A stretch of 64,000 bases of DNA from Oscillospiraceae bacterium. GTDB taxonomy: Bacteria > Bacillota > Clostridia > Oscillospirales > Oscillospiraceae. The position numbers and the translations under genes are program-made. The notes beneath the pieces are model-generated. The model saw only the letters and a list, made by a program, of their open reading frames with translations, made no database searches and was not told the origin of the DNA. The stretch is taken from the NCBI GenBank assembly GCA_015067765.1, contig SVLV01000005.1, positions 1 through 64,000 on the forward strand, given 5' to 3'. This document shows positions 2,281 to 59,463 of the stretch, one piece after another. Within the stretch, counting starts at the first letter, position 1; each line of letters starts with the position of its first letter.

Positions 2281-2423
2281 TTTAAGAGGTGTTTGTTTTT
2301 TCAGAAAAAATGGGCATAGTGGATGAAAGAGAGCGAGAGTCCAAATAGAGGAACACAAAACATTGTAAACTGCATGTACAGTGTTCGGGAAGACGCATCG
2401 TGATTTCAAAAGGAGGGATCCAT

Positions 2424-6349: not shown

Positions 6350-6499
6350 AATAGAGGGACAACCGCAGGGAGATAAAAGGCCTTGTGGCTGTCTCTTTTA
6401 TTTTCGCAAAATATTGGAAAAATTTTCATTTTTCTTCGATAAAGTGGAAACAATAGGAAGGAAAGCGAAATCAAGAATGGAGAACAAAGGAGGATGCAT

Positions 6500-7339: not shown

Positions 7340-7367
7340 GAGGGCGCCGGCGGCATGAAGGGCAACA

Positions 7368-7402
7368 AAAACTCCGATCCCCAAGGGATCGGAGTTTTTC
7401 TG
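7368..7402 (+). terminator. Intrinsic terminator, identical to 6315-6349
   Basis: aaaactccgatccccaagggatcggagtttttctg. Confidence 0.85.
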
Positions 7403-7413
7403 TTTTGTAGGCC

Positions 7414-8013: not shown

Positions 8014-8040
8014 ACAGTTTTTCTCCTTTTACAACAAGAT

Positions 8041-37194: not shown

Positions 37195-40100
37195 TTACTC
37201 CCAATTAATAACTGCGCTAATGCCTGAATAAGCAACGTTCCCAAGATTTAGAACAAAATTTTTGAGATTAAACATGTTATTAGTTACTTTAACAGTACTT
37301 TTAATGTAGTGGACAGCAGCTTTTTTAGATTCCTTCGCGTACGCAGCAAGGCCTCCGTTAGACATTGCAGAAACCGTTCTCTTTATGGTGCTGGTTCCCA
37401 AATTTACCATCTGCTTTGCTCCACCGGCACCCGCTTTTACACTCGAAGCTCCTGCACCACTTATCAATCCCGTTGCTGCCCCAATAGTCGTATCAACAAT
37501 CACCTGCTTCACACTAACGGAATTTGAACTACGTAATTGAGACTCAACACTTGTGGCTGCCGAAATTGTAGCATTGGCCACTACCTGTCCAACAGCACCT
37601 ACGCCAGAGGCGGCCAAAGCACCGCTGGCAGCTGCTCCAGCATATGCAAGTACTGAAGACGTGGGTTTCAGTATATCTAGCCCCTTTTTCCCACTGGCAA
37701 TATTGCTAACTACATCAGATGCATATTTTACTGCTACTCCGACAACTGCACCAACAATCAGATGCCAAAACTCTCCGCCATCATCCATTCTGGATACAGG
37801 ATTATTGCAGCAATATGCAAATACATTATTACCCAACAGATCCTGGCCAGTAGAAATATACCCATCGGCATTAATAAATCGTCCCATACCGGGATCATAA
37901 TAGCGGCTGGTGAGATAGTAAAGCCCCGTCTCGTTGTCGTAGACATATCCGCGATAGCGGAAGGGGTTATCCTGACCCAAAGTAGAGGCCATAGTGCCGT
38001 CAATGCTGAGAATATTACCCCAGGCATCGTAGCGATAGGATACCACCTGAGTGCCGCTGCTGTTAGCAATGCCAATGACATCGCCCTGTGCGTTGCGGAG
38101 GTAGTAGTAAGTACTATTCCCATAGGTAACCGTAGCAGGCCCCAACAGATCGTACGTGAAACGAAGGAAATTGCTACCGAAGTCTGTAATGGCCACCAAC
38201 TGGTCCCCGGCATAGTGGTATTCCAGTTCCTGCTGTGTCGAGAGAGGAACACCGGCCTGCGCCATTTCCGGACTCACAGACATCGGAGGCGTCAGATATG
38301 TTTTGCTGATCCGTTTTCCCTCTGCGTCGTAGGTATAGCGTACCTGCGCACCGGGATAGGTATAGGAGAAGCTGTTCCCCTCGCTATCCTCTGCCGTACG
38401 GGTGCTGTCAGGCTGGGCCATCATGGCCAGCTGCCGTCCGTGCTGCCAGGTATAGTTCCAAGCACCATCACCGGTCAGGTTACCCACGCCGTCATAGGTC
38501 AGGGTCTGGCCATCGTAGGTGGTCAGCAGATCCTTCCAGGTCGCATCGCCATAGGCATAGGAGACGGTATCCAGTGCCGGCCCCAGATCCCCGGTGGCAT
38601 AGTCATGCTCCGTCTTGCTGAGGATATTGCCGCCGTTGTCATAGGTGTAGACCCAGCTCTTTCCGGCCGCCTGATTGTTCTCCCGAACCAGCTGATCCAG
38701 ATGGTCATAAACGTAGCTGGTGGTATGAGTGCCATCCGAGATAGTAATGATATTTCCGCGGCTATCGTAGGTGTAGGTATAGGCGGTGGTGCCACCGGAG
38801 GTGATGTTCTTCCACTCCGAAATCTGCGTGGATGTGGTGGCGCTTGTGGGGGCTTTGTAGGAGATCTCCGAAGTGACGACGGTACTGCCATCCTTCTTCC
38901 CTATGACAGAGTTCATCCGACCAAAGCCATCATAGGCGTAGGTGCCGGTGAAGCTGCCCTGCGTGGTCCCGGTCAGCTGATTGTCATCATCATAGGTGAA
39001 GTTTGTTGTGTAGGTGGACCCATTCAGCAGCTGGGTCTGGGAGGTCAAATTGTTCCTGACGTCATAGATCCAGGTAACGCTGTTGCTGTAGCCCGTCCCC
39101 GTTTCCGTGTAGGCCGAGAGGCGGTCCTGCAGATCATAGGCATACTGAGTGGTACGGCCCGACTCGCTGTCGGTGACCAGACCCAGATTGCCGTTGGCAT
39201 CGTAGGCATAGGTAACCTTGTCGCCGTCCTCGTAGGTCTTGACGGTATTGCGTCCCAGATCATCGTAGGTATAGGAAACGGTATCCCCGTTGCCGTAGGT
39301 GGACTGGGTCAGGTAGTAGTTGCCGTCCGTACTGTACTGATGGGCAATGAGGGAACGGCTGCCCGCCTTCACACTCTGAACCAGATCAAAGGCACCGTAG
39401 GCAAAATCATAGACAGTTCCACTGGCAGAGGTGATGGTATCCAGCAGGTCGTTTTCGTAGGTATATGCTGCGGTGGTTGCGCCCTTGCTGACCCCCGTGG
39501 TACGGAATACACTGTCGTGGGAATAGTTGGTGCGGGTGGAACTTGTCTCACCGGGGGCCTGCAGCCAATCCAGGACACCTGTCTGGCTGTTGTAGCCGTA
39601 GGTAGTGGTATTGCCCAGAGCATCCGTTACCGTAGACAGCTGATTGCCACCTGAGGCATAGGTGGCAGTGGAGGTGATCTCCTTCCCACCATTGACGATG
39701 GTCACCTTCGTGTTGTTGCCATAGTCATCATAGGTGAAGTTGGTGGTCACGCCGGTTTCGCTGACAGCCTGGGTGACATTATTATACGTGTCATACTGGT
39801 AACTGGCAATAACCTGATTGTCATTGAGGAGGATTTTGGTCAGATTATTGTTGGTGTACTCATAGCTGGTCTTCTGCTTCTGCAGATCGATGGTAGAGAC
39901 GAGCTTGTCGTCTTCATAGGTATAGCTCTGGCCGAATTCCTCCTTGAACAGCTGAAGACCGTCATAGTACACGGTGTTCATGTTGTTCCCATAGAGCAGA
40001 TAGACCTTGATGGAGGAATAGGCCTTGTCCGCAATGGCGCGATCCGCCACATACTGCCAGTTGTTGGAGCTATCGCAGTCCGGATTAAAGGAAATCGTCT

Positions 40101-40611
40101 TCTTTGTAGTAGTTCCGTCCGTATTGACAAATTCCAGCATAAGACCAAAGGTTCTCGTATCATCACTCAAAGGAACCGAGTCACCCTTGCCCCAGCCGGC
40201 CAGGGAATAGACATCACCTGCTGCTCCGGAGACATTCACCGTCTGATAGACACTCTTGGATGCCGTTGCGCTGCCGCTGATCTTGTATGCGGAAGTATTC
40301 AGCTGAGGTGCTGCGCTGGCAGAAACCGTAGTCACCGTATCCGAGGAGGTGCAAGTAGAGCCCTTTGTCCATCCACTGGTGCCAAAACGGAAGTCAGCAT
40401 TATTGATCAGATTATAGCGGGTAGGTCCGGCAGATTCGACCAACTGAATACTGTCAAAATAGGAGGTGCCTCTTTCCGCGTGGTAAAGAATTACATTGGC
40501 AGTAGTCGCCGTTGCCGTTTCGGGATGCGTATAGGTCGCAATCACCTGCTTCCATCCGCTGGTTCCCACGGGCCGCAAAGTCGGACTGACGGAGGTATTT
40601 CCGATGTACAA
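37195..40611 (-). CDS. Rhs/YD-repeat (WapA-like) protein, 5'-truncated
   Basis: Many YDxxGN/YxYDxxG repeats, terminal core YRYDAWGN...[37 protein letters not shown], then a divergent C-terminal region; ORF opens mid-domain after a TGA. Confidence 0.85.
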   Translation of the reverse strand: [1138 protein letters not shown]

Positions 40612-41332: not shown

Positions 41333-42178
41333 ATGACAGAACGATATGTCACAATGCCGGTGCTGGAGGGCTTTGCCGCATGGCTGCGCAGCGATGAGAA
41401 GAGCTGCAATACGGTGGAGAAGTATGTGCGGGATGCGCGGATCTTTGCTGCGTACGCAGGGGAACGGGAGATCACCAAGGAACTGGTGATCGATTACAAG
41501 CGGGAGCTGATAGAGCGGCAGTATGCGCCCCGGAGTATCAACTCTATGCTGGCGGCGCTGAATAGCCTGTTGACTTTTTTAGGATGGACGGACTGCCGGG
41601 TACGTACCCTGCGGCTGCAGCGGCAGATCTACTGTCCGGAGGAGCGGGAACTGTCCCGGGAGGAGTATGTCCGGCTGGTACAGGCGGCCCGGAAACGAGG
41701 GGACCGGCGGATGGAAATGGTGCTGCAGACCCTCTGCGGCACAGGCATCCGGGTCAGCGAACTGCCCTACATCACTGTGGAGGCGGTCCGGCGGGGGCAG
41801 GCGGAGGTGCGGCTGAAGGGTAAGACGCGTCAGGTGTTTTTGGTGCGTGAACTGCAGCGGCAGCTACTGCGGTACATTGAGGAGCGGGGCCTTCGGACGG
41901 GATCCGTTTTTGTGACCTGCACAGGCAGACCATTGAGCCGCAGCAACATCTGGCGCGCCATGAAGCGTCTGTGCGCTTTGGCGGGAGTGGACGAGAGGAA
42001 GGTGTTTCCCCACAATCTGCGGCACCTGTTTGCCCGTATTTTCTACCGGCTGGAGCGGGATATTGCCAAGCTGGCGGATGTTCTGGGACACAGCAGCATC
42101 AATACCACGCGGATCTATGTGGTGACCACCGGGCAGGAGCACCGGAGGCAGATGGAGCACATGCATCTGATCCTATAA
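41333..42178 (+). CDS. Tyrosine recombinase (XerC/D-like); candidate invertase of the adjacent promoter switch
   Basis: CGTGIRVSELP, HNLRHLFARIFYRLE, LGHSSINTTRIYV; paralogous to the two capsule-locus recombinases. Confidence 0.92.
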   Translation: MTERYVTMPVLEGFAAWLRSDEKSCNTVEKYVRDARIFAAYAGEREITKELVIDYKRELIERQYAPRSINSMLAALNSLLTFLGWTDCRVRTLRLQRQIYCPEERELSREEYVRLVQAARKRGDRRMEMVLQTLCGTGIRVSELPYITVEAVRRGQAEVRLKGKTRQVFLVRELQRQLLRYIEERGLRTGSVFVTCTGRPLSRSNIWRAMKRLCALAGVDERKVFPHNLRHLFARIFYRLERDIAKLADVLGHSSINTTRIYVVTTGQEHRRQMEHMHLIL

Positions 42179-42205
42179 AAAAAGCGCCCCCAAAGGACGG
42201 TGAGC

Positions 42206-42229
42206 ACATAATCCACATTATGTTTCAGC
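42206..42229 (+). repeat. Left inverted repeat of invertible promoter segment
   Basis: acataatccacattatgtttcagc; exact reverse complement at 42507-42530. Confidence 0.92.
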
Positions 42230-42239
42230 GCGGCAAAAA

Positions 42240-42272
42240 AAGACGCCCACGGAGTTCTCCGTGAGCGTCAAT
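42240..42272 (-). terminator. Terminator acting on the minus strand inside the invertible segment
   Basis: Reverse strand: gacgctcacggagaactccgtgggcgtcttttttt. Confidence 0.7.
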
Positions 42273-42303
42273 TTTGTAAAAAAGCGCATGAAAAGCAGGC
42301 CGC

Positions 42304-42333
42304 TTCCTTGTGTGGCAAGGAAAGGGCTTTTTT
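42304..42333 (+). terminator. Plus-strand terminator-like hairpin inside the invertible segment
   Basis: ttccttg-tgtgg-caaggaa followed by agggctttttt. Confidence 0.55.
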
Positions 42334-42390
42334 GTCTTGCCACAAATTGGAAATCCGTTTTAAATGTCGTATATTTTTTCCTTATTTTGC

Positions 42391-42419
42391 TTGCAAGTAA
42401 AGCAAAAATATAGTATAGT
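42391..42419 (+). promoter_or_regulatory. Sigma-A-type promoter inside the invertible segment, facing the giant gene
   Basis: TTGCAA-17 nt-TATAGT. Confidence 0.75.
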
Positions 42420-42467
42420 ATAGGGACTGTATTACTGTCGTTGAGGTTTTTTGCCTCTACCCATTAC

Positions 42468-42486
42468 AACATAATGTGGATTATGT
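42468..42486 (-). repeat. Third, internal copy of the 18-bp dyad core
   Basis: aacataatgtggattatgt, same orientation as the right repeat. Confidence 0.85.
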
Positions 42487-42506
42487 ACTCGTCCTTCCAA
42501 AAACAA

Positions 42507-42530
42507 GCTGAAACATAATGTGGATTATGT
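42507..42530 (-). repeat. Right inverted repeat of invertible promoter segment
   Basis: gctgaaacataatgtggattatgt; exact reverse complement of 42206-42229. Confidence 0.92.
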
Positions 42531-42761
42531 TGTTGCTCTGCTGCAAGAAGCCTGAACGAGGAATTGTTCAGGCATTTCGCCGTTACAGGGACAAATGCAG
42601 GGGGGTAGGAATACAGAGGTTTTCTGTGCGGAAATGTTCTGAATATAGAATAAATCCGCATGAAATAACCAAATTCCGATCTATAAAATCAGGATCGGGA
42701 TGCAATATTTGAGAATGCGATGTGCGTGCGTATTCTCAAAAAGTAAGGATGTGGAATCGAA

Positions 42762-45700
42762 ATGAAGCGCAGCAAACAGTTCCTCAAACGCGGCATTTCC
42801 CTGCTGCTGGTGTTTACGATGGTGTTGTCCATGATGCCTGTCGTACACGTCCACGCAGAAGAGAATGTGCCGACAGCCTCGCTGGTTGATTTGATCGTGA
42901 AGAATTACACGGATCTCAGCGAGGAAGAAAAGGCGGTTTTCAAGGCCGGTGTGCTGAAAGACAAGACGCTTTCGTACCGCGCACCGGTGCAGGAAAACAG
43001 TGATGCTCTTGTGAGCGTGGAGAGCGCCAACAAGAAGGTCACGGCGAAGGTATTCCAGGATGAGAAGGGCAACCTTTGGACTCCTGTGAAGTATACCGTT
43101 ACCGTGGGTGAAGAAGTGAAGGAGACGGTGGCACTGACCAAGAGTGGCAGCGTCTATCTCGGCGTATTCACCGGCACCTATGAGGCATACAACATTGATG
43201 TCACTTATCAGCTGCAGTGGACTGTGGAGCACAGTGCACTGCTGAATGCTGTCTATGAGCTGGTTGATGACTATGCTGCGCTGGCCTCCCTGAAAGAGGA
43301 GGATATCAAGACCCTTCTGGGCGGTCTGGAAATGTCCAGCGCCGAGACGGGCAATATGACGGCCATTGAGCTGATTGAAAAGATGGCAAACGGCGGTTAT
43401 GAGCTGGAGGTCCCCGGCGGTTTCGGTGACTATCTCCCCGGCGTCAACACCACCATCGTCATCTCCGGTCAGCCCACCAAGGACGCCTCCTCCGCTCTGG
43501 TGGACAGCATGGTGGACGGCAAGCTGCCGCTGAGCAGCTATGTCAACCAGACTACGCTGAAGTGGCTGGTGACCGATGACCGCGAGACTCTGTTTGATGC
43601 TATCATCAGCAGCTATGAGAACGTGAAGGCCATGGCCGAGGATCCCAACGGTGTGGCAACCATCGGCCAGCAGATTCAGGACCTGATCGACGCCTGCGAG
43701 GATGCAGACGCAACGGTGATCAGCCAGATCAACGACAAGGTGACGGATCTGAACGATGCCATCGACGATCTGAACACCAAGATCGGTGATCTGAACACCA
43801 AGATCGGCCAGCTGAACGATAAGATCGAGGATCTCAATGATCAGCTGCCCGACGGTGAGCCCGTCATTGACACCATTGATACCATTCAGCCGGTGGCCAA
43901 GGTCACTGTGAACACCAATGGGGATGACGCACAGACGGCATTGACCAAGATCGATACCGCACTGGGCACGGTCGGTACTTCCCTCACCAATCTGGGCACC
44001 CAGCTGACCGGTCTGGGCACGGACCTGTCCACCCTCAACAGCCGCATTGGTGAGGTGATCACTGACATCGATGAGACGGTGGAAGAGGCCAATAAGCAGA
44101 TGGACGAGGCCTTTGACGCCATCAACGATGAGATCGACAAGGTCAATGTGAATCTGGCCGATGAGGACAAGATCTCTCATGTGGACTCCGTGGCCGATGT
44201 CCGCGCTCTGAAGGGCAAGCTGCAGGCACAGGCCAACAAGGTGTATGACGCCATCGAAGAGGTGGCTGCCGATAACGATCAGACCGTCACCATCGAGAAT
44301 GCCGATGATGTGCGGGATCTGAAGACCGATCTGCAGAAGACCTACAATGAGCTGCTGGATACCCTCAATGAGGAGCTGGCCGAGGCAAATGCTACTGTCC
44401 GCCTCTATGTGGGCACGGAGAATTACTTCAACACCAATGTGAAGAATTCCGATGAAGTGGAAACTGAGATCGGCAAGATGGAAGATCTGCTGAAAATCTT
44501 CCCGAATCTGCAGGATGCTCTGACCGCTCTGGAGGATGCCAGAGATGTTCTGGTGGCCATCGAAGATGCCGTTGCTCAGATCGATGAGAATCTGACCAAT
44601 CTGGATCAGCTGGATGCCGCCATTGAAGCCGTGAACACGGCTCTGGTGGGCCCCAACGGAAACGACGGTCTGGAGGCTGCAGAGGATGCACTGGCGGAAG
44701 CCGCCGACTATAAGGCCCAGCTGCAGGACGCACAGCAGCAGCTGAACACGGCCAAGGATCAGCTGACCCCGGCACAGGAAGAGATCGCAAGTGCCGGCGA
44801 TACCATTGATGCTGCCCGGGAAGATATTGCGGCAGCCAAGGATGCTCTGCTGGAACTGCCTGAAAAGGTGGAGTCCATGAAGGAGATGAAGAAGGTCATC
44901 GACAAGCTGCCCAACCTGATGACGAAGTTCTGCGATGCTCTGGCAGGTGCCTATCAGCGCACGAAGAGCGATGCCTGGTATCTGGACAAGAATGCAGACA
45001 TTCTGGCAGATCAGGTGGACTATGCAGTGCTCAATGAGAAGGTCGCCGCCGCTGTGGGTCATGTGACCCACCGCAGCCCCAAGGAGCAGCTGGATGTCAC
45101 CGAGGGCACGGTCCGCAGCAATGTGGGTACCGTGAACGTGACGGTGAAGCTGACGGTTCAGGCAGTGGGGAAGGACAACGTACTTACCGAGCTCACCTGG
45201 ACTCCCGATGAAATGATCTCTGTTACCGAGGGTACCACCAAGGACGTCCTGCTGCAGAAGCTGGCAGCTGCCGGTGTGGAGGCACAGGGCCTTGCTACCT
45301 TCGATGCATATTTCAACATCAATACCACCAACTATACCCGCACGGTTTCTGTTCTGCCTGAGACGGTGACGGAGGATCTGGTCTATGAGATCTTCTTTGT
45401 CCCCAAGAAGATGCAGGTGACGAAGCTGTGGGAGGCTGTGGGCCAGCAGACCTATGATGTGGACTACGGCGAGCTGATGGTGCTGCCCACCCATGAGAAC
45501 AGCGCCAAGGGTTATGTGTACACCGTGACCGTCGGTCAGGAGTCTCAGACCCTGTATCAGGGCACCCAGATCCGCGTGCTGAGCAATATGACCATTGCAC
45601 GGGTGGAAGGCGACGCCATGACGGCCTTCTATCTGGAGGACCTGCTGCCCAAGACCCACACGGTGGATCCCGCTGTGCTGGCACTGCTGAACAGCGGTGC

Positions 45701-48700
45701 CCTGAACAAGAGCCAGCAGGTGCTGCTGCGTGTGCCCGGCGATCTGGCAACGGTGGAGGAGAACACCATCACGGTGCCCGACTATCCCGCCGGCCTGGGT
45801 GATCTGGTCTGGATCGCCACCTCCGCCAAGGCAACGCTGAACGGCGGCGGAACGGAGAATGTGGTGCTGGTGGCCGATAACGGCAGCCACAAGGGCACCA
45901 TCCAGGGCCTGTGGACCAAGGTGGACATCTACTACACCCTGACCTTCGGCCACAGCGATCTGGACGTGACTGCCGGTCAGCTGGAGTCTGCTCTGCTGCT
46001 GCCCCACACTCTGCATACGGAGTATACGATACAGAAGTCCCAGCTGGATCAGCTGGCAGCCTCTGCCGGCGAGCTGAGCATTCTGAATGCCGAGCTGATC
46101 GGTACGCTGAATGTGGCCATGGGTCAGCTGAGCACCGCAGAGGGCAAGGCTGCCGTGGAGACCATCGTTAACCGCATCAACGCCGGTGACGGCACCCTGA
46201 TGCTGGCAAAGATGGCCAACCAGTACAAGAACGGCGGCATGGTCTACTACTATCGCGACAACAACAGCATCCTGTTCCGGCAGGAGATGGAGATCATGTG
46301 CCAGGCCATGAATGACCTGCTGGATGATCCGCAATTCAAGTCCCTGTGGGAATCTCAGGGCGCATCTGCTGCCGGCGGCAAGAGCTATGAGGATCTGTTG
46401 GATATCCGGGATGAGCTCAACGGTGTGACGCTGCAGGCAGTGAATCCCGCCATCAACAATTCTCCGGAAAAGGTGATCGATCCGGATACCAATCAGGAGC
46501 GTGACCCGCTGGTCATTCTGGTGGACGCCCTGGAGGACATCCAGACCACCGTCTCCTCTGTGAACACCAGCTCCCTGGTCTGGACGGAGACCATGAGCCG
46601 TACCGGCGCCAACTACAGCAGCGTGAATGTGACCGTGTCCTACAAGGGTCAGACCATGACCAGCGATGCAGTGACCGTGGTTAAGGGCAGCGCCCTGAGT
46701 CAGGCGGATTACAACACGCTGGCCGGTTACCTGAGCGACATGGAGACGAAGCTGGGCGTGGATAAGAGCCACTACACCGTTTCCGGCGCTCTGCCCGCCG
46801 CAGGCACCGTCATCAGTGCCGATACCGCGGTGCAGGTCAACTGGACGGCCAAGACCTACACGGTGGTGCTGGAGGGTGAAGCGCCCTGGACCATCACCTA
46901 CGAGAACCGTACCATCCAGCTGCCCGCCTGCACCCAGGCCGGTCACCGCTATGACTACACCATCGACAATGAGGTGCTGGGCGCCGGTGCATATACCTTC
47001 GCAGCTGACCGGTTTGACGCTCTGTTTGCCAACGGAACTTACACCATCACCCGCAAGCTGGTGAACATCGCCGATGAGAAGATGTCCGCTCTGGTGGGTG
47101 AGATGAACGGCGCGGCAATCCTGAGTAAGGACGATGCGGGCAACTACTCCATCGTGGTGCCGGTGGATCCTGCCGCTGCAAAGGACGATCTGGTGGACTT
47201 TGTGATGGGCCTGGTGCTGGGCAACCAGTACAGCTACATCGGCATGAAGACCGGTGAGTATTCCGCCTCCCTGCTGGAGGGTGGTTCTCAGATGGTTCCC
47301 GCCATTGATACCTTCTATGCCAGCGGTAAGTACCACCTGCAGACCCTGCTGGACGGCATCGCCAACAGCGGCACCGGTACCGATGTGATCCTGAGCGCCA
47401 TCAACACTGACGGCTCTGTGAATCACATGAACCTGGCCGGCCAGACGGTGCTGGTGGGTGCAGCCGGTGAGACCCTGACCGCTCTGGGCGGCAAGGTGCT
47501 GGAGCTGCAGCTGTACTTCGGCGAGGACGATGAAAACAACGTTCCCGTGAAGCTGTACCTGACTCTCAACGGTGCAGCATCCGAGCTGACCAGCCTGCGC
47601 AACAAGCTGGCAGACCTGAAGGATTACGTACAGGTGGTGTGCGAGGACGGCCGCTTCAAGCTGAATGTGACGCTGCCCGAGCTGGCCTATGAGGCCTACA
47701 TGGCACTGCTGCTGATCAAGGGTGAGGCCGATATCCGCAACTTCGAGCAGGTGAATGCGGTAACCGCATTCGGCTGGATCATGGAGCTGATGGATGGCGT
47801 GCTGGAAGATCCCGATGTGACGCTGGATACCTATATTAATACTGCTGAAAAGCTGGGTCAGACCATCCAGAATGATCTGTCCGGTTATGAAGCTACTTAT
47901 CAGAAGCTGGTTGGTTACTACAACAAGGGCAAGAATGGGATCCATGAGGAGCAGGATGGCTGGTACATCGATCCCGTGGTCAGCATCGATTCCGTGGTGG
48001 ATAACCAGCTGCAGAAGCTGGTGGATCAGGCCGCCGCAGCAATGAATCTGCCGGCAGGTTCCCTGACCATGTCCGAGATGATCGCTGAGTACGGTACCGA
48101 GGGCATCCACTTCACGGCCGCTGCCAAGCTGACCAACCTGAACACGACTTACGATGCGCTGGTGTTTGACCTGCAGAAGGCAGAGCTTAAGAAGCTGGCC
48201 GGTCTGGAGGAGAACCTGGTGGCCAACGCCCCCGCCCTGTCCGGCATGGCGTCTGTGACGCTGCTGCGGGATGTGACGGTCCCGGCAGGGGAGAAGCTGA
48301 CCTTCTCCACCACCACGGTGCTGGATCTGAACGGCTACACCATCACCGGTGACATCGCCGCAACCGATACCCTGATCATCACCGACAGCCGCATCGGCAG
48401 CGAGAATGCCGGACAGGTCACCGGCAGCATCACCGGCAGCAAGGTCATGATCAATGCCGGTTATTATCCCAACTGCGATGTGTCTGCTTACCTGAAGAAC
48501 GGCTTTGCGCAGGATGCGCAGACCGGCATGGTCAGCAGCACCCTCTATACGGTGAGCAAGACCGAGGCCGCTGCCGGCGCCGGTTACGACGATGAGATCG
48601 TCATCACTGTGAACGCCTCCGCAGCAGAGCTGCGTCAGGCCGCCAACAAGCAGAGCCTGGCTCTGACTGCACTGGATGCCGTGCTGGATACGGTCCTGTC

Positions 48701-51700
48701 CTACTACAACAGCGCCAACCTCTATGTGGAGGGCGAGAAGGTCATCGATCTGTCTGTGGAGGATGTGGTGAACCTGATCAGCGGCAGTGATCGGATGGAT
48801 AAGCTCATCAATGAAAGCCTGAGCTTCTTCTCCGCAGCAGATCTGGCAGATCTGGTGAACCGTTTCACCGCCGATCTGACCGATTTTGCCGCCCTGAAGG
48901 ACGCCGTGGATAACGGCACTCCCGTGGCCGGTTACACCTTCTCTGTGGCACCCTGGGATATCCAGGTGCGCCGCGCAGCAGGGGACTATGTGACGGCAGA
49001 CATCGGCGGTATCGCGGCCGAGGCCAAGACCGGCAAGATCAGCATCGTCATCGACGGTGCACAGAAGGATGCCATCTCCACGGTTCTGGGTGCCTTTGCC
49101 GATACCATCGATGTGGATCTGCAGCTGGCGCTGAACGATCTGCAGCTGTCCGGTACCTCCATCCCCGTGACGGGCGAAGTGGACGGCAGCCTGGTGGCTG
49201 ATTTCTCCCACGATCCCAACTATGTGATCATGATGGCAGTGATCCTGGCCAACAGCGCAGACACTGCCCTGAAGAACGAACTGGTGGCCGCCGTGGAGGA
49301 GTACTACGGCTCCAGCAGCCTGGCTGAGATGGAGACGGTGTTTGACACCATCTCTGTGGAGGACCTGTGCACGGCCCTGCGCGGCAACGGGAACTTTGCC
49401 GCCATGGTGGATGCCCTGCCTCTGCAGGCAGCGACCAAGCAGGCCATCAAGTCCGAGATCGACGGCACCGAGAAGGGTTACTACGCTGTGATCGAGGCGG
49501 TGGGCCGCGTGCTGACCCGCCTGGATGTGACGGGCACCGAGGGCGCCCTGAACGGCAAGACCATGGGCGGCGTGAAGAAGACAGAGAAGAAGACCGATGC
49601 GGCAACGCAGGAGCAGATCGATGTCAACTATTACGGCGTCAGCAAGTCCCGGAGCTTTGATAAGTCTGTTGGCCTGCCGGGTGCCTATACCCTGGATACC
49701 GATATTCAGGTGTCCGACCTGTCCCTGAAGCTGTACCTGTTCACCGATGTTGCACGGATCAACGTCTCCTGCAACGGTGTGGTGACGGAGTATGAGGATT
49801 TGGCAACGGCCCTGAAGCATGTGGCAGCAGCCCATCAGAACTGCACCGTGTATGTCAATCTGGCACAGACGGAGCTGAAGGAAGATGTGGAGCTGAACCA
49901 CGATGTGACCATCGTACACGCCAACCGCATCGCTGCCGGCAGCAAGACGATCAAGCTGGCAACCGGTGTGGAGCTGCACACCGACGCAGCCATGCCTCAG
50001 GGCATGTTGGCAGCCAAGGACAGCGAGCAGTACACCATTGGCTGCACGCAGAGCGGCAATACCTATATCTATAAGCCCGTGGAGAACCGCGTCCACGTGA
50101 AGAACCCCAACGGCGATGTGCTCTACAGCGGCGAGGATCTGGCAGAGGCCATCAAGGCCGCTGTGGCCGGCAGTGTTATCACCATCAACGAGGAGATGGA
50201 GCTGCTGGAGGACGTGCTGGTGGAGGAATCCATTACGCTGGAGAACGCCGAGAACATTGACTTCGGCGACAAGAAGCTGATTCTGGACACTGAGGCCGTG
50301 CTGGTCACCGATTATGCCCTGCCTGCCGGCGCGATCGTGCCGGAGGATGCCGATCGCTACACCATCTCCCGTACCTTCGAAAACGGTGTTTATACCTACA
50401 CCGCACTGGAGAACGCCGTCCATGTGAACAAGGGTGAAGACCTGCTGAGCAGCGGCGACGATCTGATGGATGCCTTTGCCGCAGCAACCGACGGCAGCAC
50501 CCTGCAGATCAACAGACCCGTTGCCCTGACCGGAGATGTGACGCTGCATGCCGGCGTGACCATCCAGGGCGCTGCAAAGATCAACTTTGCCACCTTCCGG
50601 ATCCTGCTGGATCCCAACGGCGTGCTGGTTACCGACAGTGCCCTGCCTGTCGGCGCAGTGGTGCCGGTGGATGGTGACAGATACACCGTCACCTGCACGG
50701 AGGCAAACGGCGTGTTCACCTACGCAGTGCTGGAGAACCTGATCCACGTGACCAGAGGCAGCACCCTGCTCTACAGCGGCAGCGACCTGAATGCCGCCTT
50801 TGAGGCAGCCATGGCTACCGACGGCAGCACCATCACGGTGAACCGTGCCGTTACTCTAAGCCAGAAGGTTACCCTGACCGGCGTCACGGTGACCATTGTG
50901 GGTGCCGGCAACATCACCTTCGAGAAGGAGATCGTGCTGGGCATGAACTCCGCCGAGCTGAAGGCAGATGCCGACATCTCCGCCCATGTGGTTTCCGGCC
51001 TGGCAGACAGATATGTTCTGTGTGTCAACAACACCTACTCTCTGGCCAAGTATCCCTATCAGGTGGGCAGCAACTACTTCACCACCCTGCAGGATGCCAT
51101 TGACAGCATCTCCGACAGCGGTGTGATCACCGTGTACGGTGCAGCAGAGCTGAGCGGTCAGATCACCGTCAGCGGCAAGCAGATCTCTGTGGTGGGCGCC
51201 GATGCCCTGAGCGTGGATCTGAACACCCTGCGCATTACCCTCAGCCAGGTGGGCGACAGCTTCCAGCTGGATGCCGTGCCCGCCGGTGTGTCGGCACAGG
51301 AGCTGAAGTCCCACTTTGTCAGCGGTGCAGGTACCTGCTCCACGGTGGAAGTTACCGTCACCTCCGGCGTACAGGCCCTGGTGAAGGAGAAGCACACCAT
51401 GGTGGAGAAGGTGGACGACCAGTATCTGAAGGCCACCGCCACCACGACGGCTGCTGCCCAGTACTGGAAGAGCTGCTCTGTCTGCGGCACCGCCAGCACC
51501 ACGGAGTACTTCTCCCATGGCAGCCCGCTGAACACCGCACCCACCATCACCAAGCCTGTGATCTCCGGCTCCAGCAATCTGCTCTACGGTCACAAGATCG
51601 ACACGGACAACAAGATGCTGTATCTGGATATTCACAAGAACGGCATGACCGTGGAGGAACTGAAGGCTATTTTGGGCGCTGCGATGACCAACGACGCCGA

Positions 51701-52049
51701 TAACAAGCCGACCGTAACGGTGAACCTCACGGCAAACTTCAACAACCAGCTGCTGGTCTGCACCGGTTCCACTGTGGTGCTGACGGCGGAAAACAGCAGC
51801 GGACAGAAAGCCAGCATCACCTATCAGGTGGTCATCATGGGTGATACCAACAGCAACGGCCGTGTGGAATCCAACGACTCGCTGCGTATGAGCCTGCACT
51901 ATGTGAAGAAGCAGGAGCTGACCGGTCTGCAGCTGCTGGCTGCCGACAACAACCAGAATGGCAGAATCGAGTCGAACGATGCGCTGAAGAATGCCATCAA
52001 GTTTACGGGACGTGCCCAGCATGTTTCCGGTCTGAAAAACGATCGTTGA
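42762..52049 (+). CDS. Giant secreted surface protein (3095 aa) with signal peptide, coiled coils, tandem beta-rich repeats and C-terminal dockerin-like module
   Basis: MKRSKQFLKRGISLLLVFTMVLSMMPVVHVHAEE signal peptide; LNDKIEDLNDQL-type coiled coil; terminal GDTNSNGRVESNDSLRMSLHYVKKQELTGLQLLAADNNQNGRIESNDALKNAIKF. Confidence 0.92.
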   Translation: MKRSKQFLKRGISLLLVFTMVLSMMPVVHVHAEENVPTASLVDLIVKNYTDLSEEEKAVFKAGVLKDKTLSYRAPVQENSDALVSVESANKKVTAKVFQDEKGNLWTPVKYTVTVGEEVKETVALTKSGSVYLGVFTGTYEAYNIDVTYQLQWTVEHSALLNAVYELVDDYAALASLKEEDIKTLLGGLEMSSAETGNMTAIELIEKMANGGYELEVPGGFGDYLPGVNTTIVISGQPTKDASSALVDSMVDGKLPLSSYVNQTTLKWLVTDDRETLFDAIISSYENVKAMAEDPNGVATIGQQIQDLIDACEDADATVISQINDKVTDLNDAIDDLNTKIGDLNTKIGQLNDKIEDLNDQLPDGEPVIDTIDTIQPVAKVTVNTNGDDAQTALTKIDTALGTVGTSLTNLGTQLTGLGTDLSTLNSRIGEVITDIDETVEEANKQMDEAFDAINDEIDKVNVNLADEDKISHVDSVADVRALKGKLQAQANKVYDAIEEVAADNDQTVTIENADDVRDLKTDLQKTYNELLDTLNEELAEANATVRLYVGTENYFNTNVKNSDEVETEIGKMEDLLKIFPNLQDALTALEDARDVLVAIEDAVAQIDENLTNLDQLDAAIEAVNTALVGPNGNDGLEAAEDALAEAADYKAQLQDAQQQLNTAKDQLTPAQEEIASAGDTIDAAREDIAAAKDALLELPEKVESMKEMKKVIDKLPNLMTKFCDALAGAYQRTKSDAWYLDKNADILADQVDYAVLNEKVAAAVGHVTHRSPKEQLDVTEGTVRSNVGTVNVTVKLTVQAVGKDNVLTELTWTPDEMISVTEGTTKDVLLQKLAAAGVEAQGLATFDAYFNINTTNYTRTVSVLPETVTEDLVYEIFFVPKKMQVTKLWEAVGQQTYDVDYGELMVLPTHENSAKGYVYTVTVGQESQTLYQGTQIRVLSNMTIARVEGDAMTAFYLEDLLPKTHTVDPAVLALLNSGALNKSQQVLLRVPGDLATVEENTITVPDYPAGLGDLVWIATSAKATLNGGGTENVVLVADNGSHKGTIQGLWTKVDIYYTLTFGHSDLDVTAGQLESALLLPHTLHTEYTIQKSQLDQLAASAGELSILNAELIGTLNVAMGQLSTAEGKAAVETIVNRINAGDGTLMLAKMANQYKNGGMVYYYRDNNSILFRQEMEIMCQAMNDLLDDPQFKSLWESQGASAAGGKSYEDLLDIRDELNGVTLQAVNPAINNSPEKVIDPDTNQERDPLVILVDALEDIQTTVSSVNTSSLVWTETMSRTGANYSSVNVTVSYKGQTMTSDAVTVVKGSALSQADYNTLAGYLSDMETKLGVDKSHYTVSGALPAAGTVISADTAVQVNWTAKTYTVVLEGEAPWTITYENRTIQLPACTQAGHRYDYTIDNEVLGAGAYTFAADRFDALFANGTYTITRKLVNIADEKMSALVGEMNGAAILSKDDAGNYSIVVPVDPAAAKDDLVDFVMGLVLGNQYSYIGMKTGEYSASLLEGGSQMVPAIDTFYASGKYHLQTLLDGIANSGTGTDVILSAINTDGSVNHMNLAGQTVLVGAAGETLTALGGKVLELQLYFGEDDENNVPVKLYLTLNGAASELTSLRNKLADLKDYVQVVCEDGRFKLNVTLPELAYEAYMALLLIKGEADIRNFEQVNAVTAFGWIMELMDGVLEDPDVTLDTYINTAEKLGQTIQNDLSGYEATYQKLVGYYNKGKNGIHEEQDGWYIDPVVSIDSVVDNQLQKLVDQAAAAMNLPAGSLTMSEMIAEYGTEGIHFTAAAKLTNLNTTYDALVFDLQKAELKKLAGLEENLVANAPALSGMASVTLLRDVTVPAGEKLTFSTTTVLDLNGYTITGDIAATDTLIITDSRIGSENAGQVTGSITGSKVMINAGYYPNCDVSAYLKNGFAQDAQTGMVSSTLYTVSKTEAAAGAGYDDEIVITVNASAAELRQAANKQSLALTALDAVLDTVLSYYNSANLYVEGEKVIDLSVEDVVNLISGSDRMDKLINESLSFFSAADLADLVNRFTADLTDFAALKDAVDNGTPVAGYTFSVAPWDIQVRRAAGDYVTADIGGIAAEAKTGKISIVIDGAQKDAISTVLGAFADTIDVDLQLALNDLQLSGTSIPVTGEVDGSLVADFSHDPNYVIMMAVILANSADTALKNELVAAVEEYYGSSSLAEMETVFDTISVEDLCTALRGNGNFAAMVDALPLQAATKQAIKSEIDGTEKGYYAVIEAVGRVLTRLDVTGTEGALNGKTMGGVKKTEKKTDAATQEQIDVNYYGVSKSRSFDKSVGLPGAYTLDTDIQVSDLSLKLYLFTDVARINVSCNGVVTEYEDLATALKHVAAAHQNCTVYVNLAQTELKEDVELNHDVTIVHANRIAAGSKTIKLATGVELHTDAAMPQGMLAAKDSEQYTIGCTQSGNTYIYKPVENRVHVKNPNGDVLYSGEDLAEAIKAAVAGSVITINEEMELLEDVLVEESITLENAENIDFGDKKLILDTEAVLVTDYALPAGAIVPEDADRYTISRTFENGVYTYTALENAVHVNKGEDLLSSGDDLMDAFAAATDGSTLQINRPVALTGDVTLHAGVTIQGAAKINFATFRILLDPNGVLVTDSALPVGAVVPVDGDRYTVTCTEANGVFTYAVLENLIHVTRGSTLLYSGSDLNAAFEAAMATDGSTITVNRAVTLSQKVTLTGVTVTIVGAGNITFEKEIVLGMNSAELKADADISAHVVSGLADRYVLCVNNTYSLAKYPYQVGSNYFTTLQDAIDSISDSGVITVYGAAELSGQITVSGKQISVVGADALSVDLNTLRITLSQVGDSFQLDAVPAGVSAQELKSHFVSGAGTCSTVEVTVTSGVQALVKEKHTMVEKVDDQYLKATATTTAAAQYWKSCSVCGTASTTEYFSHGSPLNTAPTITKPVISGSSNLLYGHKIDTDNKMLYLDIHKNGMTVEELKAILGAAMTNDADNKPTVTVNLTANFNNQLLVCTGSTVVLTAENSSGQKASITYQVVIMGDTNSNGRVESNDSLRMSLHYVKKQELTGLQLLAADNNQNGRIESNDALKNAIKFTGRAQHVSGLKNDR
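50089..51150 (+). repeat. Divergent tandem protein repeats (about 100 aa) in the giant protein
   Basis: Repeated pattern [VI]HVxx(G)xxLLxSGxDLxxAFxAAxxGSTIxxNxxxxLxxDVTLxxxVTIxxAxxIxF...VLVTDxALPxGAxVPxDxDRYTxxxxxxNGVxTYxxLEN. Confidence 0.8.
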
Positions 52050-52062
52050 AGGGGATTGAGTC

Positions 52063-53148
52063 ATGAAAAAGTTTTCTAAATTGATTGCGGTGCTTGTGGC
52101 ACTGCTTATGACCCTGGTGCTGATCCCTTCTGCCTATGCGGCAGAAGGGGCTCCGGGGAGCACAGTGACCGTGCGTCTGTCTCTGGGTACCGTGTCCTCT
52201 GTGGACGGCACCGTGTCCCTGAGCAACCCCGGCCTGTTCAGCAGCGTGAGCTATAAGGTGGAGGCCGGCTCCCTGACCAACGGCTCCTCCGGCAATACCA
52301 TCTTCTGCTACGGCGGCGGTGAGACGGCTGGTGTTACCGTGGTGGTGACGGGTACCATCAGCCCCAATGCTGCCGATGGCGCCTCCTGCAAGATCACGGC
52401 CAGCTACTCCTACAGTGATGCCGACTACAACTACATTGAAGGCAAGAGCAAGAGCGGCACGGTGACCGTGAAGGTTCCTGCAGCGCCTCCCGGTGGCGGC
52501 GGTGGTGGTGGAACTACTCCCACGCCCCCTCCCACTCCCTCCGGCCCCTCCGAGCCTGTTGTGCAGATCGATTATTCCGAGCTGAACAAGCAGATCGATG
52601 CCGCCAATAAGCTCTCTGCCGAGGGGTATACCGATGCCTCCTGGGCCGCCCTGAAGGATGCCCTGAACAAGGCAACCTCCATGCGCAGCAGCAAGAGCCA
52701 GGCTGACGTGGATCAGGCCGCCAAGGATCTGGCAGCCGCCATTGCCGCACTGGCCAAGGTGGATTACACCGCTCTGAAGCAGGCCATCGAGAAGACCGAG
52801 ACCCTGCTGACCAACGAGAAGATCGGCGGCCAGCTGAAGGATCTGCTGACTGCTCTGGAGAGCAGCAAGGGTCTGCTGACTTCCGGCGACCAGGGTGCAG
52901 TGGATGCTGCAGCCAAGTCTCTGGAGGATCTGCTGCTGGCCCTGCAGCAGGAACTGGATGCCATGAAGATCCCTGAGGACGGCTTCTGCAACATCACCAT
53001 CCATCAGGTATGGCCCATCCTGTTCTTCATCAGCCTGGCAGTGAACGTTGCCTTTGTTGCACTGGCAGCCGTTTACGTGGTGCGCCGCAAGAAGAACCAG
53101 AAGGACGATACCCCTCTGGTGGACTACGACATCGGTGACGATCAGTAA
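52063..53148 (+). CDS. Membrane-anchored surface protein with cohesin-like N-terminal domain, FIVAR-like helical repeats and C-terminal TM
   Basis: Signal peptide; AAEGAPGSTVTVRLSLGTVSS...GTVTVKVPAAPP beta domain; poly-Gly/Pro linker; LNKQIDAANKLSAEGYTDASWAALKDALNKA; TM VWPILFFISLAVNVAFVALAAVYVVRRKK. Confidence 0.75.
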   Translation: MKKFSKLIAVLVALLMTLVLIPSAYAAEGAPGSTVTVRLSLGTVSSVDGTVSLSNPGLFSSVSYKVEAGSLTNGSSGNTIFCYGGGETAGVTVVVTGTISPNAADGASCKITASYSYSDADYNYIEGKSKSGTVTVKVPAAPPGGGGGGGTTPTPPPTPSGPSEPVVQIDYSELNKQIDAANKLSAEGYTDASWAALKDALNKATSMRSSKSQADVDQAAKDLAAAIAALAKVDYTALKQAIEKTETLLTNEKIGGQLKDLLTALESSKGLLTSGDQGAVDAAAKSLEDLLLALQQELDAMKIPEDGFCNITIHQVWPILFFISLAVNVAFVALAAVYVVRRKKNQKDDTPLVDYDIGDDQ

Positions 53149-53215: not shown

Positions 53216-54709
53216 GTGCTTTTTAAGAAACATGCAAAATGGGGTGTTTTTTTGAAGGAAAACAACTGGAAGAGAATGGAATATGAGACCTGGGACGAGG
53301 CCTTCCGCGGTCAGGTGGCGGCAGTGCGCCAGCAGTCTGTCCGTGTGGCCGCCTATACACAGGCGCTGTTTCTGCAGGCCTGTGCCGATTCCTTCGGCAA
53401 AAACACCCCCGGCGGCAGCGATCAGATCCGCAGCCAGTACGGCGATCTGGCCTACAAGTGCGGACTGTATCATCAGCTGGGCAAGGCACTGGTCCCGCCG
53501 GAATATCAGATCTGGCAGAAGGACTATACGGAGGAAGAGGTGGCGGTGTACCAAAAGTACACCACGGACGGCCGCGCGCTGGTGGCGTCCCTGCAGGAGC
53601 GGGGGCAGCGTGCCAAAGAGAAGCGCAAGGGCGCCGTGGAGGAGCTGCCCACCCAGAACATCCCCTGGCTGATGATCCGGGAGAGCTGCGAGCAGCACAT
53701 GGAGCGCTGGAACGGGTCGGGATACCCCCACGGGCGACAGGGCAGACAGATCAGCCCCATCGCCCAGATCGTGGGTCTGGCCAAGGAACTGGACCGGCTG
53801 GCCTCCGAGACCAAGCGGGAGGATCCCTTTGAGGATGCCTGCCGCACCCTGCAGGAACAGGAGAATACCCTGTGGTCTCCGGAGCTGATCGCTGTGCTGA
53901 AAAATGCCCGCAGCAAGTGCCGCGCCGTGTACAACAAGTACATCCACTACACCATGACCGTGCCCAAGACGATCCCGCTGGTGAAGAAGACAAAGGATCG
54001 GCCCATGGGTCTGAGCTACCGGCCCATGGTGTCGGACATGACGGGGACGGTGGTTGCCTACGAGGCGGAGCCCTGGTACGGCGGCATCGCCAACAACCCC
54101 GGTGAGCGGGAGGGAACGGCGGAGATCCACGATATGCTGGTGCGCACCGGCATGATCGCGGACATGGCCTTCTACTTCCTGTATGAGGCGGCGGATGCGC
54201 TGGTACGCATCGAAAACTGCAGGCTGAACCTGCGGGGCGTGCTGGTGAATATGCTGCCCGGATTTTACACCCTGCCCACGCAGCTGCAGCGGTTTGAGCA
54301 GCTGTTTGAGGATCAGGGCATCGATCGCAGCAAGCTGTGGATCACGGTGCCGGAGGAGAGCTTCCGCAAGGCCACCAAGGGTCAGAAGGAACTGATGGCC
54401 CGGTATCTGCGCAACGGTGTCGTGCTGGTGCTGGATGGGGTACATCCGGAGGGCATGGACTGGGAGGAGGTCAAGGCTCTGGGTCTGCGCCATGTGCGCC
54501 TGGCACCGGAGACGGGTCTGAACCCCGATACCGCGCAGTTGATGAAGCAGCTGACGGCGGATGGCTTTGTGCTGCTGGGCGGCGGCGCCGATACCCACGA
54601 TCTGCTGGGCTGGCAGCTGGCCTGCGGCGTGAGCTGCAGCAGCGGTACGGTGACCGGTCTGCCGGTCAGCGAGGAGGAAATGATCCGGGACCGCCTGCTG
54701 GCTGAGTGA
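53216..54709 (+). CDS. Degenerate HD-GYP-like plus EAL-like regulatory protein
   Basis: YHQLGKALVP (HD to HQ), HMERWNGSGYPHGRQGRQISPIAQIVGLAKELDRL (GYP retained), VAYEAEPWYGG EAL-like region and C-terminal LGWQLACGVSCSSGTVTGLPVSEEEM. Confidence 0.6.
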   Translation: MLFKKHAKWGVFLKENNWKRMEYETWDEAFRGQVAAVRQQSVRVAAYTQALFLQACADSFGKNTPGGSDQIRSQYGDLAYKCGLYHQLGKALVPPEYQIWQKDYTEEEVAVYQKYTTDGRALVASLQERGQRAKEKRKGAVEELPTQNIPWLMIRESCEQHMERWNGSGYPHGRQGRQISPIAQIVGLAKELDRLASETKREDPFEDACRTLQEQENTLWSPELIAVLKNARSKCRAVYNKYIHYTMTVPKTIPLVKKTKDRPMGLSYRPMVSDMTGTVVAYEAEPWYGGIANNPGEREGTAEIHDMLVRTGMIADMAFYFLYEAADALVRIENCRLNLRGVLVNMLPGFYTLPTQLQRFEQLFEDQGIDRSKLWITVPEESFRKATKGQKELMARYLRNGVVLVLDGVHPEGMDWEEVKALGLRHVRLAPETGLNPDTAQLMKQLTADGFVLLGGGADTHDLLGWQLACGVSCSSGTVTGLPVSEEEMIRDRLLAE

Positions 54710-55818
54710 TGGCCATGAAAAAGAAACAGACGCCTCCTGTGGAGGCACAAGGAACAACCCTCCCCCAGGGACACACCCCCCAGCGGCGGCTGCTGAAAAA
54801 GCGCCGCGCAGGTGTGGTGCTCTCCCGGGAAGAGGTCAGGACCATACAGCTGGGGCGCAAAAAGCTGCGCCGGGAGCTGCGGAAGAAGGGCATCAAAAAA
54901 CGCAAGGATTTTGAGCTGACCGCTTCCAGTCTGGGCCTGTATTTTGACAAGAACCGTCTGGGTGCGCTGCTGCTGTGGCTGCTCCACGGACGGGGACTTT
55001 GGGCATTGCTGGGTGCAGCCGGCCTGCTGCTGACGGTACTGTTTGCCTTCTCCCTGATCTCACAGATGCAGGGACATTTCACCATCAACCTGACAGGAGA
55101 TCTGCTGAAGGAGGGCTTTGTGCTCAGCGAAACGGCGGATTTCAAAGAGGGCTCCATGCGTCTGTTTGCAGAACCTGCCACAGACGTGCCCTGCTTTTCC
55201 CTGGCGGACCTGCACGAAGATGTGAACGATGTGGACGGCCAGCACAACGAGGCCGGCTACTTTGCCTACACCTTCTACATCCGCAATGAGGGCGAAAACA
55301 CGGTGGATTACGACTGGGAGCTGGTCATCAACTCCGAGAGCAGAAATCTCACCGATGCCACATGGGTCATGTTCTTCGAGGACAACCGGATGAACATGTA
55401 TGCCAAGGCCCGGACGGACGGAAGTCAGGAGGCGCTGCCCGGTTTCGGCGACAACAGCCGGGGCTATCTGCGCGTGCCGCTGGCGGACCGTGCTGCATCG
55501 GAGGACCTGTACCGGGTGGTTGCCACCCGGGGCGGCGTGAACTATTACCGCGTGGTCCCCACCTCCTTTGAGAGCGATGACATAGTGACCTCCGGCACCC
55601 AACTGCAGGTGGCCCCTATGGAGACCCACAAGTACACGATCGTCATCTGGCTGGAGGGCGATGATCCCGACTGCACCGACGAACTGATCGGTGGCCATGC
55701 CGGTGTGGAGATGCGTTTCCACATGGCAGAGGAAGAGGAAACAGATGACCCGGCAGACAGCGGTGTGCTGACCCACTGGGATGCCTTTTGGGACAACCTG
55801 CTGTTCTGGAAAGATTAA
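54709..55818 (+). CDS. Membrane-anchored TasA-like/SipW-associated surface protein with long basic cytoplasmic N-terminus
   Basis: Single TM (LWALLGAAGLLLTVLFAFSLI) then beta-rich ectodomain; WLEGDDPDCTDELIGG motif shared with the 58471-59463 product. Confidence 0.55.
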   Translation: MAMKKKQTPPVEAQGTTLPQGHTPQRRLLKKRRAGVVLSREEVRTIQLGRKKLRRELRKKGIKKRKDFELTASSLGLYFDKNRLGALLLWLLHGRGLWALLGAAGLLLTVLFAFSLISQMQGHFTINLTGDLLKEGFVLSETADFKEGSMRLFAEPATDVPCFSLADLHEDVNDVDGQHNEAGYFAYTFYIRNEGENTVDYDWELVINSESRNLTDATWVMFFEDNRMNMYAKARTDGSQEALPGFGDNSRGYLRVPLADRAASEDLYRVVATRGGVNYYRVVPTSFESDDIVTSGTQLQVAPMETHKYTIVIWLEGDDPDCTDELIGGHAGVEMRFHMAEEEETDDPADSGVLTHWDAFWDNLLFWKD

Positions 55819-58470: not shown

Positions 58471-59463
58471 TTGCAGACAAAGGAAAGGCGCAGCAATGGA
58501 AGAGCGCTGCGCGTGGTGAGTTATCTGTATGTGATTTTGATTCTGCTCATATTGTCTGTGGTGGCCACCTATACCTGGTTTGCAATGAGCCGGGCCCCGA
58601 AGGTCAGTGACCTGGGACTCTATGTCAATGCCCCCACCGGTCTGGAGCTTTCGCAGGACCCGCAGGCAGAGGAGTGGGTACTGCAGTTGGATTTCCCCGC
58701 CCTGGTGGGCGAAACCGCACCGCTGCGGCCGGTGACCTGGTCCCAGCAGAACGGACAGTTTTTTGCAGCAACTTACGGGCATGACGGGCGGCGCACCAAT
58801 GTGTGGGAGCCGCTGACCGATGAGCGCCATGCCAATCAGAATAACGCCGACGGATACTATGTCGTTGGCACCTTTTACGCCCGCAGTCAACAGGTGACGA
58901 CGGTGCACCTCTCCCCGGCGGTGGAGGTGGACGATGGACTGCAGGGCGCCGGAACCTATGTGATCGGCACCCCGGTATGGGATGACGAGCGGGTGCTCCA
59001 CAGCGATGGAGGCAACGGAGCACAGCAGGCCATCCGCATCGGCCTGCGGGTGCAGAAGACCGATCTGCAGGGCAATGCCGCCGGAGACAGTACCTTTTAT
59101 ATCTACGAACCCAATGCCGACACCCATGTGGACGGCACCACCGGATACATCGCCACCCCCAATATGGATGATGGGGCGGGTCTGGTGGATGAGGCGCATC
59201 TGATCACCCAGACCACCAGTCAGTGGGAAGAGGTGTCCCCCGTGGAACGGAATGTGGTGATGCGCACGCTGGGGGAATTTACCAGCGAAACAGAGCTTTT
59301 TTCCATCGGTCCGGAGGAGCTGGTGCAGATCCGCCTCTATGTCTGGCTGGAAGGCCAGGATGTGGACTGCAGCAATGCCATCGGACAGGCCGCACAGGTG
59401 GTGGCCAGCATCCAGTTTGGTACGGCGGATGATACGCAGTCCGGACTGGTTCCCATTGGTTAA
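58471..59463 (+). CDS. TasA/SipW-type exported protein
   Basis: VVSYLYVILILLILSVVATYTWFAMSRAPKVSDLGLYV; C-terminal VWLEGQDVDCSNAIGQAAQVVASIQF. Confidence 0.65.
   Translation: MQTKERRSNGRALRVVSYLYVILILLILSVVATYTWFAMSRAPKVSDLGLYVNAPTGLELSQDPQAEEWVLQLDFPALVGETAPLRPVTWSQQNGQFFAATYGHDGRRTNVWEPLTDERHANQNNADGYYVVGTFYARSQQVTTVHLSPAVEVDDGLQGAGTYVIGTPVWDDERVLHSDGGNGAQQAIRIGLRVQKTDLQGNAAGDSTFYIYEPNADTHVDGTTGYIATPNMDDGAGLVDEAHLITQTTSQWEEVSPVERNVVMRTLGEFTSETELFSIGPEELVQIRLYVWLEGQDVDCSNAIGQAAQVVASIQFGTADDTQSGLVPIG

Follow-up and report, generated by a model that had tools for sequence, protein, structure and literature searches.

The question of an invertible promoter

In the genome of an Oscillospiraceae bacterium (contig SVLV01000005.1), a tyrosine recombinase gene is followed by a short piece of DNA bounded by inverted repeats and then by a gene encoding a giant secreted protein of 3095 aa. 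This arrangement raises the question of whether the DNA between the repeats is an invertible promoter that turns the downstream operon on and off. The whole stretch that was analysed (64,000 nucleotides, positions 1 to 64,000 of the contig) is referred to below as the window. An invertible promoter captured in its ON orientation, as proposed in the initial annotation, proved to be the best-supported reading, and the evidence that carries it comprises inverted orthologues, the recombinase-site-promoter-target layout and contig breaks at the site. Judging from the sequences compared here, the locus is very likely a phase-variable promoter switch that is presently ON and flipped by the adjacent recombinase.

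The recombinase gene and its paralogues in the window

The predicted invertase is encoded on the + strand at 41333-42178 (281 aa from an ATG, or 284 aa from a GTG at 41324) and, as had been described, its reading frame stops 27 bp ahead of the left repeat. The protein matches PF00589 (E=1.5e-25) and PF02899, and its catalytic set is complete (R140, K164, H227, R230, H253 and Y262), while the XerC and XerD models gave only scores far below their cut-offs. Association with the sites and the catalytic residues support it as the putative cognate recombinase of the switch. Upstream of this gene, a 1138-aa RHS/YD-repeat protein is encoded on the - strand (37195-40611).

Two paralogues of the recombinase (2400-3383 and 6494-7339, 56% and 57% identical to it) flank polysaccharide genes (sugar transferases, epimerases) elsewhere in the window, and no recognisable sites were found at either of them. 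At its 3' end, the first paralogue continues as an ispD-like remnant (PF01128, E=0.0057, under the cut-off), and it looks as if a deletion took out its switch. Both paralogues could act instead of, or alongside, the adjacent recombinase.

Three recombination sites at the switch

The perfect 24-bp inverted repeat reported previously (42206-42229 and 42507-42530, its arms separated by 277 bp) was recovered and both of its arms are real, but the description of a two-copy repeat had to be amended: the site cores number three, and a middle copy had been overlooked. The 18-bp core, ACATAAT-CCAC-ATTATGT, occurs three times in the window (shuffle mean 0.02), and a search without mismatches found no exact copy elsewhere in the 1.54-Mb assembly. 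The left site (42206-42223, + strand) lies about 30 bp past the recombinase stop codon, as it does in most relatives. The middle site (42469-42486, - strand) is oriented like the right copy and shows 96% complementarity with the left arm across 23 nt, and the outer site (42513-42530, - strand), which falls within the right arm of the 24-bp repeat, is in tandem with it at a distance of 44 bp.

Comparison with related loci indicated which of the two right copies is the usual partner. In relatives, the starts of the paired cores are usually separated by 240-265 bp, and the left-to-middle distance in the window (263 bp, start to start) is the modal value among them, while the left-to-outer distance is 307 bp. 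The distance from the promoter-proximal core to the -35 box is mostly 64-79 nt in relatives (range about 55-86); in the window the box lies 78 nt from the middle core, whose inner flank, TTGTAA, is the common one among relatives. Since spacing, -35 distance and flank all match those of relatives, the middle copy is the likely canonical partner, and the inverting pair probably consists of the left and middle sites, with the outer copy being extra.

Extra tandem sites that are cognate to the pair also occur in four other loci (L012, L107, L123 and L137), where they stand 63, 33, 53 and 32 bp, respectively, from the next site. In all five loci, the window included, they are found at the end to which the promoter points. 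An extra copy moving together with the segment would be expected to give this arrangement; five is a small number of cases. Locus L122 was omitted from this count, as its third site is at the promoter-distal end, has a non-matching centre and is not cognate. The spacings of the extra sites (32-63 bp) are near whole helical turns, with too few cases for a conclusion.

The presence of three cognate cores, and the recurrence of such extra sites in other loci, leave a small but appreciable chance that the main event at this locus is something other than simple inversion, namely loss or gain of the 44-bp unit via the direct right copies, or alternation between left-outer and left-middle states of different strength. 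Most relatives, however, manage with two sites, and every state that these events could produce would still present the promoter either forward or reversed.

Promoter, terminators and the predicted mechanism of switching

The sequence TTGCAA-17-TATAGT, which the initial annotation had placed between the repeats and facing the 3095-aa gene, is indeed found there (42391-42419, + strand). It is a predicted promoter in the ON orientation, matches the consensus at 9/12 positions and lies within an invertible segment of 245 bp (42224-42468, no strand assigned), whose length and layout are as in relatives. Sigma-70-like matches numbered 8 against an expected 2.8 +/- 1.8, which is weak evidence alone; it is the agreement of its position with that of the promoters of relatives that makes the window promoter credible. 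The segment also contains a strong intrinsic terminator on the - strand (42242-42269; 12-bp stem, seven T, -21.3 kcal/mol) and, upstream of the promoter, a terminator-like hairpin on the + strand (42304-42334, also delimited as 42304-42322), which is predicted to insulate it from recombinase transcription. A weaker terminator on the - strand (42185-42199) is located outside the left site. None of these three elements figured in the initial annotation. The segment thereby has the appearance of a combined promoter-and-terminator unit.

We infer that the recombinase acts on these sites, that the centre of the site is the crossover region and that the orientation of the segment sets transcription ON or OFF. 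In the proposed mechanism, the enzyme would bind the ACATAAT/ATTATGT half-sites, exchange strands within the 4-nt centre and invert the DNA bounded on one side by the left site and on the other by the middle site (or the outer extra copy). In the ON state, TTGCAA-17-TATAGT would drive a leader of about 335 nt followed by the giant gene and the SipW/TasA-like operon, with the terminators, including the + strand hairpin, insulating promoter and operon from the recombinase gene. It had been suggested that inversion turns the promoter away from the operon, and virtual inversion agrees with this: the promoter then points left, toward the weaker terminator (42199-42185), which would halt leftward transcripts beyond the left site in the OFF state. 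The same virtual flip places the 12-bp-stem terminator on the + strand before the operon, where it would block read-through.

It is this last feature, a strong terminator that faces the operon in the flipped orientation only, which speaks for a switch of the cwpV kind, with a working promoter upstream (e.g. that of the recombinase gene) and an inversion that mainly adds or removes a terminator before the operon. Such a switch is nevertheless unlikely here, because in the ON state the hairpin at 42304-42334 would still halt read-through from the recombinase gene, the segment itself contains a promoter-like sequence whose distance to the promoter-proximal site is conserved in relatives, and this sequence is found on opposite strands in the inverted orthologues described below.

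Between the promoter and the giant gene, candidate leader hairpins were noted at 42550-42580 and 42708-42740 (GCCTGAAC/GTTCAGGC and TTTGAGAAT/ATTCTCAAA), for which attenuation or control of the ribosome-binding site is possible; a search of the segment and leader, these hairpins included, for riboswitches and other known RNAs gave nothing near the gathering score (Rfam). A further observation concerns an element of 10-15 nt (AATCATACTTTTC) that precedes the recombinase start by 40-55 bp and has a second copy, identically oriented, ahead of the invertible promoter. It is doubled in this way in more than a dozen relatives (L010, L039-L049, L055, L062, L068 and others), the window not being among them, and may place the recombinase and the switched promoter under shared control.

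Opposite orientations in related genomes

A fixed orientation of the segment across related genomes had been named at the outset as an observation that would speak against switching. The opposite was found, in orthologous loci of two genomes of the window's own genus (G015 and G022) and in the Gemmiger isolates An50 and An87, and both orientations are thus met in nature. In G015 and G022 the recombinase genes are identical at 792/804 positions (98.5%) and the flanks are about 96% identical (287/300 for the right flank), whereas the segments align (241/254, 95%) only as reverse complements, with the change of orientation located at the sites. As a result, the promoter-like sequence TTGACA-17-TACTAT is directed at the target in G015, while in G022 it points the other way. 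In a third genome of this genus with the orthologous locus (G028, 97-98% identical), the start of the contig coincides exactly with the left site's inner edge. The recombinases of these inverted orthologues are about 60% identical to that of the window. Among other relatives, the segment of locus L048, for which the promoter call was made manually, is opposite to those of L039, L041 and L055, and promoter calls over 63 segments gave 13 ON, 44 OFF and 6 unclear.

Contig breaks were also found to be concentrated at the site. In 8 of 55 loci the contig runs out no more than 350 bp past the recombinase gene, compared with 1.2 expected (P about 1e-5) and with 2 on the upstream side, and four further contigs (L146, L148, L149 and L150) end in the site itself. 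Such breaks are what mixed orientations do to an assembler, and paralogues or low coverage can cause them too.

One past inversion in relatives is no proof of ongoing switching, and a locked-ON relic, in which the repeats and promoter persist while switching has been lost, would fit the single orientation available for this species as well as the two site-less paralogues in the window, one of them fused to the ispD-like remnant. We nevertheless hold such a relic to be improbable: the recombinase keeps all of its catalytic residues, and the three cores are letter-perfect, two of them sharing 24 bp, where drift would be expected in unused sites. Moreover, a contig assembled through the site says nothing about minor orientations.

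Distribution of the recombinase and its sites in relatives

Relatives of the window recombinase with 42-65% identity were found on 43 genome contigs, and also in several families of the order. In the taxonomic family to which the window belongs, they are present in 60 of 175 good genomes, representing 21 of 46 genera, with up to 14 copies per genome. Where the sequence extends far enough, most loci, dozens in all, have a site pair about 0-65 bp past the recombinase stop codon. No site pair was detected at 14 distant XerC-like homologues used as controls. When 394 genomes were scanned with the DNA pattern only, 16 pairs were obtained (0 with a reversed control pattern), 12 of which adjoin a family recombinase or part of one; the 4-nt centres are complementary in all 16, even though the pattern left them unconstrained.

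The half-sites differ by subgroup (ACATAAT, ACAAAAT, ACATTAT and ACGGAAT); in 52 of 64 cases the nearest-neighbour recombinase belongs to the same site class, compared with 33.6 under shuffled labels. This is consistent with a site that the neighbouring enzyme recognises and in whose variable centre crossover presumably takes place. The chemistry of tyrosine recombinases is established, and the reading of the centre as the region of crossover derives from it.

The same cassette layout recurs in many genera before different target genes. That the repeat is a chance occurrence or the end of a mobile element (transposon terminal repeats, an integron or a phage attachment site), with a merely coincidental promoter, has a negligible probability, for although integrative elements also carry tyrosine recombinases, this recurrence before differing targets and the absence of matches to the reversed pattern argue against it, and the inverted orthologues already disfavour it.

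A phage origin was considered and rejected, no relative being found in IMG/VR.

Several of the target regions deserve separate mention. In seven loci (L011, L039, L040, L044, L052, L060 and L064) a like switch stands before an operon that starts with an SPFH/Band-7 protein, followed in L044 by TIR-domain proteins; these are possibly phase-variable immune operons. In L068 (5319-8865) the genes that follow the switch encode a phosphoesterase of the calcineurin-like type and an ATPase resembling SbcC/LmuB (LmuB, E=1.3e-21), which makes this operon a candidate Lamassu-like one. Locus L064 also contains a site pair 2.3 kb apart (6859-9178) around an ORF of about 640 aa that runs in the opposite direction, possibly a much longer invertible segment. 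Finally, family cassettes occur upstream of SipW/TasA-like genes in other lineages (L022, L058, L059 and L067), with a site pair in L022, L059 and L067 and a single site in L058, so the pairing of such a switch with a matrix operon recurs.

The target operon and its counterpart in a sister species

The target had been called a giant surface-protein operon. A giant secreted protein does head it, but the operon as a whole is better described as a SipW/TasA-like extracellular-fibre operon. All of its genes are on the + strand. The 3095-aa protein (42762-52049) has an apparent signal peptide, a long coiled coil at about residues 300-730 and a C-terminal dockerin-like stretch. It is followed by a secreted protein with a FIVAR-like region and a C-terminal membrane anchor (52063-53148), an HD + EAL protein that is a candidate c-di-GMP phosphodiesterase (53216-54709; PF13487, E=1.9e-13, with PF00563 below the cut-off) and a 370-aa membrane protein (54706-55818). 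Next come two TasA-like secreted proteins (55941-58265 and 58471-59463), recognised by reading their sequences, the first of which has an N-terminal hydrophobic segment followed by TYAWF, and then a SipW-type signal peptidase I (59515-60354; TIGR02228, 81 bits against a cut-off of 51.85), which also matched the SipW model with E=4.6e-24 and 85 bits, under the cut-off of 190. Neither of the two fibre-like proteins matched the TasA family models; both have the look of SipW-type signal peptides. An AAA ATPase-like protein (60413-62023; PF07728 just below the cut-off) and a 618-aa coiled-coil protein (62046-63902) complete the series. Likeness to SipW and TasA suggests that the product of the operon is a surface or matrix fibre.

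In a sister species (G008), gene order and sequence of the operon are conserved, at about 69-90% identity. The giant protein orthologue is 69-70% identical, and the 370-aa membrane protein and both TasA-like proteins have conserved counterparts. Neither the site nor a related recombinase was found at this operon in G008. Upstream of it there are instead a divergent HTH regulator and TTGAAA-17-TATAAT inside a palindrome. A switch in the window as opposed to an HTH regulator with a fixed promoter in G008 predicts stochastic control of this operon in one species and regulated control in the other.

Wider implications

Invertible promoters are already known as a kind of mechanism. Novelty lies in the locus and its target, in the explicit architecture of sites and cassette, in orthologues in both orientations and in the recurrent third site, together with the range of targets, which includes SPFH/TIR and SbcC/Lamassu-like operons resembling immune genes. 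Phase-variable promoters are best described in Bacteroidota, and a compact, recognisable cassette of recombinase and sites is now defined for a large group of gut Clostridia, most of them uncultured. The DNA signature of this cassette allows any metagenome to be scanned for it. The window species and G008 permit a clean comparison of one predicted surface-fibre operon under two predicted modes of control, stochastic in the former and regulated in the latter.

A broader proposal is offered tentatively, with the balance of probability somewhat against it in full. A recombinase, two or three sites and a promoter-terminator segment may constitute a portable cassette that has spread across Oscillospirales and come to stand ahead of operons unrelated to one another: some for polysaccharides, matrix fibres or giant surface proteins, and others (SPFH/TIR, SbcCD/Lamassu-like, helicase) that resemble immune systems. 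The cassette may in this way allow stochastic switching of surface architecture and, possibly, of phage defence. Within the lineage of the window, it would have replaced the HTH-regulated promoter of a conserved fibre operon, and the third site may add states.

Comparison with known systems

The tapA-sipW-tasA matrix operon of Bacillus subtilis encodes a SipW-type signal peptidase and TasA secreted proteins and is under SinR control. The window operon is similar in joining a SipW-type signal peptidase with TasA-like secreted proteins, but it begins with a 3095-aa coiled-coil protein, includes an HD/EAL protein and is predicted to be controlled by inversion and not by SinR.

With regard to the switch itself, the initial annotation had likened it to Clostridioides difficile cwpV and to Bacteroides capsule promoters. 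The predicted mechanism is that of invertible promoters. cwpV is a poor and only partial analogue, as its promoter is outside the inverted DNA and it relies for switching on a terminator within the OFF transcript (PMC2784873); the candidate promoter of the window is inside the segment (42391-42419). More generally, the RecV switches of C. difficile (flg, cwpV and cmrRST; PMC7446863, PMC2784873, PMC8844915) resemble the window in that a tyrosine recombinase inverts a short 5' segment of surface or motility genes in Clostridia. RecV, however, serves several sites, whereas the window recombinase and its switch form one cassette. The invertons of gut bacteria (Bacteroides capsule promoters and PhaseFinder sets; PMC8748976, PMC11892184) share with it short inverted repeats around a promoter, surface genes as targets and ON/OFF states. 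The window switch differs from them in its occurrence in Clostridia, in the dedicated tyrosine recombinase beside the repeat, in its ACATAAT-N4-ATTATGT site family and in its built-in terminators.

The closest counterpart is inverton group 139, of whose 33 invertons 32 are from Clostridia; according to the accessible portion of the source (PMC11892184), this group is statistically linked to a nearby tyrosine-type recombinase/integrase (invertase group 35), and shifts in orientation were measured for it. That portion, in its account of group 139, mentions neither this species nor the target operon. An adjacent tyrosine-type recombinase in Clostridia is present in the window too, and the member from Intestinimonas butyriciproducens given there has a start-to-start distance of 241 bp, within the range of the window's family (PMC11892184). 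Group 139 and invertase group 35, likened here by description and spacing and not by repeat motif, are probably the same class of system as the switch in the window.
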